From Bacteroidota bacterium (GTDB taxonomy: Bacteria; Bacteroidota; Bacteroidia; Bacteroidales; B18-G4), in the NCBI GenBank assembly GCA_018831055.1, contig JAHJRE010000150.1, forward strand, positions 1 to 34,320: a stretch of 34,320 nt of DNA. Direction: 5' to 3'. The notes under the pieces were generated by a model that was given only the letters and a program-made list of their open reading frames with translations, ran no database searches and was not told the origin of the DNA. The translations under genes were made by a program, and so were the position numbers. Below are positions 27,916 through 31,780 of this stretch, piece by piece. The first letter of the stretch is position 1. Each line of letters starts with the position of its first letter.

Positions 27916-28335
27916 ATGAAAGGAAACGTAACCCTTACGATGATCAAGCCAACTGCGGTCAGAAAAGGATATATCGGCCCCATCCTCGCAAAAATCAATG
28001 AAGCTGGTTTCAGGATACGCGCCATGAAATTCACGAAACTATCGGTCAAACAAGCACAATTATTCTACGAAGTGCATAAAGAGAGACCTTTTTACAACGA
28101 TCTCGTCGATTTTATGTCTTCCGGACCTATTGTCGCCGCAATACTGGAAAAAGATAATGCAGTGGACGCATACAGAACTGTTATAGGGGCTACAGACCCT
28201 TCCAAATCTGAAGAAGGAACGATCAGAAAGCTTTATGGAACCAATATCCAGGAAAATGCGGTTCATGGTTCTGACAGCGATGAGAACGCCATAAAGGAGA
28301 GCAATTTCTTCTTTTCAGCTTTGGAACGCTTTTAA
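27916..28335 (+). CDS. ndk: Nucleoside diphosphate kinase
   Basis: A 139-residue NDK, the normal bacterial length. [11 protein letters not shown] opens the fold, and the phosphate-accepting histidine is His117 in [12 protein letters not shown]; the preceding RKLYGTNIQ and following FF near the end are also conserved. It balances the NTP and dNTP pools by moving the gamma-phosphate between nucleotides. The frame continues 16 codons upstream to a TTG inside the -7 element, so the ATG at 27916 is used. It is a single gene between the divergent NrnA-like operon and the convergent XRE gene. Confidence 0.96.
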
Positions 28336-28386: not shown

Positions 28387-28791
28387 TTAGTCATTCGATA
28401 ACCTGTATTCTTCAACAGAATAATCAGAATAAAGTATTAATACTTTAACAACCTTCTTTCCTTTTTCTTTCTGAACCTTAAACTCAGGAAGAACAGGTTT
28501 TTCCTTTTCCTCTGCCTTTTCCTTTTCCTCTGCCTTCTTCTCAGGTTGCTTGTCCTCCTTTCGTGTTGTAAAAAGATCAGGAATTTCTTCCTTTCGGGTC
28601 TTACCGGTTAGTAACCATTCAATATCAACATCCGGATACCGGTGAAGGATTTTCTGTATAAAATCGAGACTGGGTTTGTTTCGCCCCGATAGGATATGAG
28701 ATAAACCAGATCTCTGTATTCCGATCTCATCCGCAAATCGTGAGGGTGTTAAATTTTTGGACCGGATTATTTGTTCAATTCTGTTTTGCAT
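28387..28791 (-). CDS. XRE-family helix-turn-helix regulator with charged linker
   Basis: A 134-residue DNA-binding protein. Residues 1-62 are a Cro/CI-type HTH (IEQIIRSKNLTPSRFADEIGIQRSGLSHILSGRNKPS), then a Lys/Glu-rich linker that is a DNA-level tandem of an 18-bp unit (about 86-101), and a short C-terminal hydrophobic strand VVKVLILYSDYSVEEYRL that may serve dimerisation. The ATG at 28791 is chosen because the upstream 20 codons cross the operator region. Five copies of TTACAnnTGTAA lie upstream, the nearest 14 nt before the start, so autorepression is likely. The ligand and other targets are unknown. Confidence 0.85.
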   Translation of the reverse strand: MQNRIEQIIRSKNLTPSRFADEIGIQRSGLSHILSGRNKPSLDFIQKILHRYPDVDIEWLLTGKTRKEEIPDLFTTRKEDKQPEKKAEEKEKAEEKEKPVLPEFKVQKEKGKKVVKVLILYSDYSVEEYRLSND

Positions 28792-28804: not shown

Positions 28805-28816
28805 TTACAAATGTAA
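28805..28816 (-). promoter_or_regulatory. Operator-like box 1, overlapping the XRE gene -7 element
   Basis: TTACAAATGTAA on the plus strand (TTACATTTGTAA on the minus strand). Its minus-strand part TACATTTG (28808-28815) is a perfect TAnnTTTG -7 element, 16 nt before the XRE ATG. A repressor bound here would block that promoter. Confidence 0.65.
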
Positions 28817-28828
28817 TCAAATCGTAGT

Positions 28829-28840
28829 TTACATTTGTAA
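28829..28840 (+). promoter_or_regulatory. Operator-like box 2
   Basis: TTACATTTGTAA, 24 nt centre-to-centre from box 1, so it covers the -33 region of the minus-strand promoter. Arms TTACA/TGTAA are perfect around a TT centre. It also contains TACATTTG on the plus strand. Confidence 0.65.
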
Positions 28841-28871
28841 CCTTTTCGCAAATTCTTTACGATAAGTTTGT

Positions 28872-28883
28872 TTACATTTGTAA
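28872..28883 (+). promoter_or_regulatory. Operator-like box 3
   Basis: TTACATTTGTAA, identical to box 2 and 43 nt further on. The flanks also agree: both are preceded by GT and followed by CC. Confidence 0.6.
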
Positions 28884-28960
28884 CCTCAGGGAAGTGTTCT
28901 TTATTATACTGATATTAAATTAAATACACTTATAGTGATTTATTCCTGATAACTTTACTG

Positions 28961-28983
28961 TATCTAAATTATAACTTTAGATA
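28961..28983. other. AT-rich hairpin in the XRE upstream region
   Basis: TATCTAAA (28961-28968) and TTTAGATA (28976-28983) form an 8-bp stem with a 7-nt loop, followed by TAATTTTTATAA. It could be a weak terminator for plus-strand transcripts started at boxes 2 or 3. The rest of 28884-29078 is AT-rich and I see no gene in it. Confidence 0.35.
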
Positions 28984-29078
28984 TAATTTTTATAAAACTG
29001 ATTATAAGCTATATAAACTTGCTTAATGCTGAACTGATTTACGAATAGTGAAGTCATCCGGAATGCAGGATAAATAAA

Positions 29079-29090
29079 TTACATTTGTAA
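29079..29090 (+). promoter_or_regulatory. Operator-like box 4
   Basis: TTACATTTGTAA, identical to boxes 2 and 3, about 145 nt before the chosen start of the outer-membrane protein gene. Confidence 0.6.
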
Positions 29091-29151
29091 ACTTAGTTGA
29101 TCTCGTTTCCTTTCTATTTATAAGGATTTTGATTAATGCGTATTGAATAAT

Positions 29152-29163
29152 TCACATTTGTAA
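29152..29163 (+). promoter_or_regulatory. Operator-like box 5 (one mismatch)
   Basis: TCACATTTGTAA, one change from the other boxes, which also destroys the -7 match. It ends 35 nt before the candidate -7 element of the outer-membrane protein gene, an upstream position suited to regulation of that promoter. Confidence 0.5.
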
Positions 29164-29198: not shown

Positions 29199-29206
29199 TA
29201 GTTTTG
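29199..29206 (+). promoter_or_regulatory. Candidate -7 element of the POTRA/barrel gene
   Basis: TAGTTTTG, a perfect TAnnTTTG. It overlaps the first TTG of the open frame, so a start downstream (TTG at 29225) is more likely. No -33 TTTG at standard spacing. Confidence 0.45.
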
Positions 29207-29224: not shown

Positions 29225-31180
29225 TTGGTCCGTCGAAAAAATATCCTGGTAAGCATTTTATACTCCGGTCTAATAATATCCGGACTAATAATTATACATG
29301 GCTATACCCATGCTTCCATAACTTGTCACTCCCCTATCCCGCAGGTACCGGATACATTACATCGGCAAACAAAGGACACTTTAGTATTTCAGGGCAGCGA
29401 CAGTATTTTCAATTGGTATGGGAATCAGGCTTTGAAATCCCGAAAATTTTATGATTCCATAAAGTCGGTGGCTTATAAGAGGAAAATCACTTCCGTTCTT
29501 TATCAAATGGCTTTTAAAAACCCTTCTTCTCAGGCACAAAAAGTAGAACCTGTTATAACTTCCAGGGAAATGCCTTATGTTCAATATTCCGGTAAGATTG
29601 TCCACAAGATTGAGATCATAAGGCTTCTGCCTTTTACCCCGGACAGTACCAAGAATCTACAGGGCTTTCTAAACCGGTTTGGAAACAGCCTCCATACTTT
29701 GACAAAACAATCTGTTATACGGAAGGAAATGTTTTTTAAGCCGGGGGATGAGTTGGATCCGCTGGTATTGGCCGATAATGAAAGAATACTAAGGGCCCTT
29801 CCGTTTATTGATGAAGCCAATATACAGGTTATTGAGACTTCTCCGGGATCAGACTCTGTAGACTTGATTGTTGTGACTAAAGATAAATTCTCCTATGCCT
29901 TCAGCGGTACCATTAAAAATGCCCGGAAATTTTCAGTCAGAGTTTGGAGTGTGAATGTCATGGGATTAGGGCATCGTTTCGACAATAAGATTTCAGTGAA
30001 TACGGAACGGACACCTGTAGTACTATATGAAGAAGGTAAGTACGAAATAAGTAACATCGGTGGCTCATTTATTAAAGGTCTATTGAAATATACCCGGGAT
30101 GATGATGACCGAAGAGACATTACCGCAGGGATTTCCAGGGATCTGATCCCCCCGTCATTCGATGACGCTTTCGGAATTAAAGTGGGTGTAACAACTTATC
30201 CTGCCTCTGTAAATGATCCGGACGGCAATAACAATGAAATCCAGATTGGTTCTTACCAGACTGATCTTTATTATACCAATGGAATTGCCTTGAAGAAAAA
30301 TATCAGAGCAAAGGTAAAACACCCATCATACCTTTTGTTATCTGCCCGTTCCATCAGTCTTGATTACTTTTCCAGGCCATTTGTCAGTGCAGATAGCAAC
30401 CTTGGTTTCAGAAGCCGCCTGACAGTTATAGGGGGAATAGGTATTGCCAGGAATAACTATTTTATCACCAACTATGTATATAGTTTCGGAAAAACCGAGG
30501 ACATACCCTATGGATACACTTTCCAGCTTATCGGTGGATATGAATTGGGAGAATTTTACAACCGGCCTTACACAGGCTTACTTTTAGGTTATGGAAATTA
30601 CTTCAACAATGCCGGGTATGTCTATAGCATAATGGAAATTGGCACTTATTATAAAGATGGGCAATACCAACAGGGACTATTTCAATGTAATGCCAGTTAT
30701 GCTACTCCCGCTTTTAAAATGAAAAATGCCCGCATCAGAAACTATCTGAATATTAACTATACCCAGGGATTTCACCGGATTTCGGGGGAAGTGATACGGA
30801 TGGACGACCGAAATGGATTTGAAGGTTTGGGAATCAATGACCTTCTGGGGCAGAAACGCCTGGTAGCGGGAACAGAAAGTGTGGTTTTTACCCCATGGTT
30901 TTTCTATGGATTTTCTACAGCCGTATATGGATTCGTTAATTGTGGAATATTATCCACAGAAAATAAGCCTCTATTCGATAATCCTGTATATGTTGGATTG
31001 GGAGTTGGGCTTAGAATCAGAAACGAAAACCTTGTATTTAACACGTTACAAATCCAGATCTCTTATTTCCCGGTTGCGCCACCTGGAGCTTCAGAAACTG
31101 ATTTTTCCCTATCCGGTATCCCGGAGAAAAGCATACATGGGTTTTATTCCAATGCTCCTTCCATACCCTCGTTCTACTAA
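29225..31180 (+). CDS. POTRA-containing outer-membrane beta-barrel protein (Omp85/BamA-like)
   Basis: About 651 residues. A basic start and hydrophobic core (VRRKNILVSILYSGLIISGLIIIHGYTHA) form a signal peptide. A POTRA-like module follows at about 120-215 (HKIEIIRLLPF, VIRKEMFFKPGDELDPLVLADNERILRALPFIDEANIQV), then a long barrel with alternating aromatic strands to the C-terminal FY. The POTRA wording FKPGD, NERILRALPFI is that of the BamA/TamA superfamily, so it may help insert or move proteins at the outer membrane. No ATG begins the frame: TTG at 29204 lies inside the -7 element, so TTG at 29225 is chosen. It is divergent from the XRE regulator and shares its box-rich upstream region. Confidence 0.78.
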   Translation: MVRRKNILVSILYSGLIISGLIIIHGYTHASITCHSPIPQVPDTLHRQTKDTLVFQGSDSIFNWYGNQALKSRKFYDSIKSVAYKRKITSVLYQMAFKNPSSQAQKVEPVITSREMPYVQYSGKIVHKIEIIRLLPFTPDSTKNLQGFLNRFGNSLHTLTKQSVIRKEMFFKPGDELDPLVLADNERILRALPFIDEANIQVIETSPGSDSVDLIVVTKDKFSYAFSGTIKNARKFSVRVWSVNVMGLGHRFDNKISVNTERTPVVLYEEGKYEISNIGGSFIKGLLKYTRDDDDRRDITAGISRDLIPPSFDDAFGIKVGVTTYPASVNDPDGNNNEIQIGSYQTDLYYTNGIALKKNIRAKVKHPSYLLLSARSISLDYFSRPFVSADSNLGFRSRLTVIGGIGIARNNYFITNYVYSFGKTEDIPYGYTFQLIGGYELGEFYNRPYTGLLLGYGNYFNNAGYVYSIMEIGTYYKDGQYQQGLFQCNASYATPAFKMKNARIRNYLNINYTQGFHRISGEVIRMDDRNGFEGLGINDLLGQKRLVAGTESVVFTPWFFYGFSTAVYGFVNCGILSTENKPLFDNPVYVGLGVGLRIRNENLVFNTLQIQISYFPVAPPGASETDFSLSGIPEKSIHGFYSNAPSIPSFY

Positions 31181-31252
31181 ACCATGTGAACATCTTGGGT
31201 GAAGGCTTCTTGTCTGAAAGGAAAATATCGATCTTTGCAAAAAAAAACCATC

Positions 31253-31780
31253 ATGGAAAGAAATATGGAAGACTTGACCCAGGACCCTATATTTAATCGG
31301 ACCGTTATTGAATTCCTCACAGTAGCAAACGATTACTGTTTGTTCGTTGAAAAAGCTCATAAATACAAATTGGACGATATCCTGGAATATCTTCAAAAGA
31401 TTGCACCTCTGATTTATCTGAAAGGAGCTCTGCTCCCTGAAGTGGAACCCGAAAACCCCGATGCCGATGAAAGATTTGTTACCGAAGAAAACTGGGAAAT
31501 TATTTTCAACGATATGCGGGACAAATTTGTTGATAAAGACTTCTTCTGGTTTATAGATGATTCAACCTTCATTGATACGGAAATAACCAAGGGATCCATC
31601 CCTGAACTCCTTGCCGATATCTACCAGGATCTGAAAGATTTCGTGATGCTATATCAAAAAAATACCCTTAACGCAAAACAAAATGCTGTAAAGAGCTGTA
31701 AAGAACTCTTTGCCAGAAACTGGGGCTATAAATCCATCCTGCTGCAGAAAGCGATACACAAAATTTTATTTATCGATTGA
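31253..31780 (+). CDS. DUF5063 domain protein
   Basis: A 175-residue soluble, largely helical, acidic protein without signal peptide. It matches what I recall of DUF5063 (an N-terminal VIEFLTVANDYCLFVEKA helix, then YLQKIAPLIYLKGALLP and a C-terminal helical bundle with FVMLYQKN and CKELFARNWGYKSILLQKAIHKI). No function is known to me. The frame opens 18 codons earlier at 31199, but the ATG at 31253 after an A-rich stretch is more likely. It follows the barrel gene by 72 nt and may be co-transcribed with it. Confidence 0.72.
   Translation: MERNMEDLTQDPIFNRTVIEFLTVANDYCLFVEKAHKYKLDDILEYLQKIAPLIYLKGALLPEVEPENPDADERFVTEENWEIIFNDMRDKFVDKDFFWFIDDSTFIDTEITKGSIPELLADIYQDLKDFVMLYQKNTLNAKQNAVKSCKELFARNWGYKSILLQKAIHKILFID

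Follow-up and report, generated by a model that had tools for sequence, protein, structure and literature searches.

SinR, the 434 repressor and Cro, and the C proteins of restriction-modification systems bind palindromic operators with a five-helix HTH domain. Several of these operators are located in each promoter region, and autoregulation is achieved by their overlap with the promoter. Repressors of the XRE family that regulate their own genes are an established type. The locus described here is located in a window of 34,320 nucleotides, the whole stretch of DNA analysed, and comprises an XRE-family gene, a divergent outer-membrane protein gene and an array of palindromic boxes in the spacer between them:

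27919-28335, + strand, ndk (nucleoside diphosphate kinase), convergent with the XRE gene; PF00334, E = 5.7e-51
28390-28791, - strand, XRE-family regulator of 134 amino acids; HTH_3, E = 1.6e-9
28805-28816, - strand, box 1; perfect, TTACAAATGTAA on the + strand, which is TTACATTTGTAA in the XRE orientation
28829-28840, no strand assigned, box 2; perfect, TTACATTTGTAA on the + strand, 24 bp upstream of box 1
28872-28883, no strand assigned, box 3; perfect, TTACATTTGTAA on the + strand, 43 bp from box 2
29079-29090, + strand, box 4; perfect, TTACATTTGTAA on the + strand, distal
29152-29163, + strand, box 5; single mismatch, TCACATTTGTAA
29204-31180, + strand, outer-membrane protein gene, divergent; BamA-like by a weak match, true start may be the TTG at 29225
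31199-31780, same strand as the outer-membrane gene and after it, DUF5063 protein gene

The preliminary description had claimed five TTACAWWTGTAA boxes within 360 bp, four of them perfect and one with a single mismatch, and all five were recovered at 28805-29163. Box 5 precedes the listed TTG start of the outer-membrane gene by 40 bp. When the 412-bp spacer was shuffled 20,000 times with dinucleotides preserved, no shuffle contained at least four perfect TTACANNTGTAA sites (mean 0.003). The AA/TT-centred palindrome occurs four times in the whole 4.19-Mb genome, and all four copies are in this spacer. Four more TTACANNTGTAA sites elsewhere in the genome have other centres; two are within reading frames and one is just ahead of one. 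A TTACATCTGTAA site was observed 24 bp ahead of an ORF resembling a cation P-type ATPase (L123:1753-1764; G000:C295), and as a single site it may have arisen by chance. A scan of the whole window allowing two mismatches was uninformative (26 matches vs 17 expected).

The XRE protein scores 38.1 bits against PF01381 (HTH_3; cut-off 23), which places it in the XRE/HTH_3 family. In the AlphaFold2 model, an N-terminal five-helix HTH (pLDDT of about 98 over residues 1-60) is followed by a disordered linker and a C-terminal β hairpin (strands 116-120 and 126-130), which is encoded at 28390-28446 of the window. The DNA-binding domains of SinR and the 434 repressor are among the structural neighbours. 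Over 99 orthologues, Arg4, His32, Arg37 and Trp59 never vary, and the recognition region (QRS-x-x-SH-x-x-SGRNKPSLDF) is near-invariant; the operator is constant too. Some orthologues with altered recognition helices still have the same box, which weakens any assignment of specificity residues. Across the family, a highly variable linker precedes a conserved hairpin (roughly KIxKIVxFYxDGTFxEY), which is a candidate for a role in dimerisation or sensing. A domain search gave no S24 peptidase match in the 134-residue protein, so autocleavage is not expected and a LexA-like S24 repressor was ruled out. A phage CI/RstR repressor was also rejected, given an RstR score of 26.3 bits against a cut-off of 80 and the chromosomal ndk context.

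Homologues of the XRE protein were found in 48 of 60 genomes of relatives and in at least 80 other named records, most of them from Bacteroidales and Flavobacteriales. In a phylum-spread sample, at E<=1e-15, just 24 of 198 genomes have one, so the family is widespread without being universal. The 500-bp regions preceding 102 non-redundant orthologues (Bacteroidales and Flavobacteriales) contain 192 TACANNTGTA cores in total, against an expectation of 3.3 and a maximum of 10 in 200 shuffles of the same regions, although shared descent of the orthologues means that shuffle probabilities overstate independence. A perfect core is located in this interval in 85 of the 102, the next-best 4+4 palindrome upstream of these orthologues occurs 46 times, and the other flanks of the loci (473 kb) contain 70 cores. 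A core or single-mismatch box was observed at 102 of 104 loci, and two or more boxes at 93; no recognisable box was found at the other two orthologues, L043 and L073, of which L043 is possibly misaligned. A second sample was fetched from the phylum sample by protein only. Most of it comes from a single family (f56) that belongs to another order, and some members may be closely related to the first set; in this sample 19 of 20 orthologues have the core, with 48 cores in 10 kb. These counts very strongly bear out the prediction that the box is located beside the regulator in relatives.

The boxes also coincide with promoter elements. TACATTTG at 28815-28808, inside box 1, is the only TAnnTTTG in the spacer that faces the XRE gene, in agreement with the earlier claim that box 1 contains the only good -7 element of this gene. 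With the -7 element placed at -12 to -5 (PMC9723704), the XRE transcription start is predicted at ~28803, 12 nt ahead of the ATG. Relative to this start, box 1 would span about -13 to -2, and box 2 would span about -37 to -26, over the -33 region as had been proposed. Boxes 2, 3 and 4 also hold TACATTTG on the + strand, facing the outer-membrane gene (29080-29087 in box 4). The + strand of the spacer also carries TAAGTTTG at 28863-28870, and another TAGTTTTG is located at 29199-29206, just beyond the scanned spacer. The promoter of the outer-membrane gene is uncertain, with the -7 element of box 4 and the TAGTTTTG at 29199-29206 as candidates.

A consistent orientation relative to the promoter was observed among the orthologues. 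Boxes located 30-60 bp ahead of the XRE start have a TT centre in 44 cases and an AA centre in 6 (binomial p=3e-8), and in these 44 of 50 boxes the TT centre gives a -7 element TACATTTG facing the XRE gene. This bias backs the proposal that operator and promoter are the same sequence. Alignment on the proximal boxes gave no clear conserved -33 TTTG and only a weak TTG ~20 bp upstream, which agrees with the reported failure to identify a -33 element in F. johnsoniae (PMC7366714).

Box spacings in the orthologues peak at 24, 34-35 and 46 bp, of which 24 bp is the commonest. For 50 pairs from 63 divergent representatives (HTH identity below 72%), the best spacing period is 10.7 bp, a result reached by none of 2000 uniform nulls. 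Because these steps approximate one helical turn, the simplest reading is that neighbouring dimers would bind the same face of the DNA, and the phasing backs the cooperativity suggested earlier.

We consider it highly probable that dimers of the XRE protein occupy the boxes cooperatively on one DNA face and repress the protein's own promoter, with the distal boxes likely controlling the divergent gene where there is one. One dimer would bind each TTACAnnTGTAA palindrome. With box 1 over the -7 element and box 2 over the -33 region, the bound protein would exclude RNA polymerase, and the XRE gene would thereby limit its own expression. Neighbouring dimers would cooperate by contact or short looping, and the distal boxes would put the divergent gene, where present, under the same control. 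The orthologues share a conserved palindrome that overlaps the regulator's own promoter, which is characteristic of an autoregulated XRE repressor. The autorepression claimed at the outset is supported, and from the geometry of the boxes over the promoter we infer that the control is repression rather than activation.

The boxes might instead be operators of a BlaI/MecI/CopY-type repressor (PF03965), with the XRE gene simply a target. The classical operator core of these repressors is the identical 10 bp, TACANNTGTA (PMC7253601), and this genome, like 46 of 60 relatives, has PF03965 genes. However, the core box was found at 0 of nine PF03965 loci (the genome's own strong L119 and L111-L118), and membership in the CopY/BlaI/MecI systems, which places the operator beside a PF03965 gene, was rejected. 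BlaI, MecI and CopY repressors usually regulate their own operons, which also counts against this reading. In addition, genomes without a PF03965 match, such as G035, G056 and G014, have the XRE gene and the boxes, although at a draft completeness of 97-98% a gene could, with low probability, have been missed. We regard control by a PF03965 protein as extremely improbable, and hardly less so the reading of the boxes as nothing more than sigma-factor -7 elements (TAnnTTTG), which would form several promoters and have no operator function. The perfect TACATTTG sequences in boxes 1-4, correctly oriented near starts, would be explained by such elements, but conservation extends beyond TAnnTTTG to both half-sites and to the outer T and A, and many boxes are AT- or TA-centred and hence lack a -7 element. 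The helical phasing of the boxes and their concentration at one gene per genome also argue against pure -7 elements.

An XRE protein that binds the boxes but mainly activates, with the distal boxes as activating sites for the divergent gene and autoregulation secondary, is somewhat easier to accommodate and nevertheless very unlikely. Distal boxes are commoner at loci with a divergent upstream gene (1.92 per locus, compared with 1.05 for codirectional genes), which favours activation. In contrast, the proximal boxes lie over the -7 to -33 interval and are equally common with divergent (44 of 48 loci) and codirectional (39 of 43) upstream genes, which is the geometry of autorepression. The same distal counts lend moderate support to the proposed control of the divergent gene, against which stands the variation of the upstream gene between clades.

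The upstream neighbour of the XRE gene is a BamA-like gene in relatives of the window (L007, L011 and L086), a gene for a TPR protein with a signal-like N-terminus at L023, L035 and L054, and an M14 peptidase gene in Flavobacteriaceae. In the latter, a 24-bp-spaced box pair is often located about 15 and 39 bp ahead of the peptidase start. With an upstream neighbour that changes from clade to clade, control of the divergent gene is likely but clade-specific, and would be at best clade-specific for the outer-membrane gene; autoregulation would be the constant part. The product of the outer-membrane gene had been called Omp85-like, a name that the analysis backs with a sub-threshold BamA match (TIGR03303, E=1e-6, far below the cut-off; POTRA, E=0.075). 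On the other side of the XRE gene, ndk is convergent in about 34 Bacteroidales loci, and pyrD or pyrK is located downstream on the same strand in about 14 loci (including L017, L021, L022, L029, L034 and L071; pyrK then pyrD in L022), several within 100 bp. Pfam confirmed one pyrD and one pyrK. This neighbourhood suggests a possible link between the XRE regulator and pyrimidine nucleotides.

Confinement to the regulator locus was observed for tandem pairs, defined as perfect 12-bp boxes 20-50 bp apart, start to start, in 60 genomes. Seven of the eight such pairs are at the XRE gene, and the reversed-pattern control gave none. Pairs of the 10-bp core number 24, of which 17 are at the XRE gene (16 upstream and 1 inside), compared with 4 for the reversed control. 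At one locus (L170:725-769; G045:C14), the XRE frame itself contains two core boxes with a spacing of 33 bp, and a further box is upstream of the start. An exception was observed in G011, in which three boxes lie between two divergent genes (L166:1490-1533; G011:C6), one of which resembles an alpha-L-fucosidase by eye. The region upstream of the XRE gene of G011 has boxes of single-mismatch quality at best, and the L166 boxes are possibly a moved target. A genome-wide regulon was rejected, as the 12-bp pattern count of most genomes is not much above the reversed control. The excess in G024 (32 vs 8 in the control) was likewise not accepted as a regulon, being in considerable part due to copies of a MITE-like repeat that are dispersed in the genome and contain the box. 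This repeat of roughly 60 bp, with a perfect TTACATTTGTAA box, is present in many intergenic places (L143, L146, L148, L151-L153 and L155-L161); it resembles a MITE, and its spread may create decoys or new operators.

No description of the XRE-box pair was found in the open papers searched, which miss most subscription journals, and no relevant paper on the box sequence or on XRE proteins of Bacteroidetes was found in the open literature. Few regulator-operator pairs are known in Bacteroidota, whose promoters are unusual. The pair described here combines a precise operator with a defined protein family that has many orthologues, among them those of cultured Flavobacterium, Tenacibaculum and Marinifilum, in which binding, regulated genes and signal are directly testable. 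The exchange of targets around a constant autoregulatory core would illustrate how local regulators gain new targets. A more elaborate arrangement, in which one constant operator serves divergent targets exchanged between clades and the phased array over both promoters forms a looped or extended multi-dimer complex, is conceivable but rather doubtful.

Compared with the known systems, the locus resembles those of SinR and the 434 repressor in its XRE five-helix HTH, to which the predicted fold matches, and in its several palindromic boxes overlapping its own promoter. It differs from these and from the C proteins in its operator and in the C-terminal β hairpin that follows a variable linker, and a SinI-like partner, an S24 peptidase domain and restriction genes were not recognised. 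Unlike the phage systems, the XRE gene is located in a conserved chromosomal context beside ndk. The non-canonical LexA of Bacteroidetes is an S24 protein with a phage-like HTH (PMC8565304), and the XRE protein is similar in its HTH_3-type N-terminal domain and as a Bacteroidota-specific repressor family. The TACANNTGTA core and the paired operators over the promoter are shared with the cop box of CopR-CopY/BlaI/MecI (PMC7253601), whereas the regulator at this locus is an XRE protein rather than a PF03965 protein.
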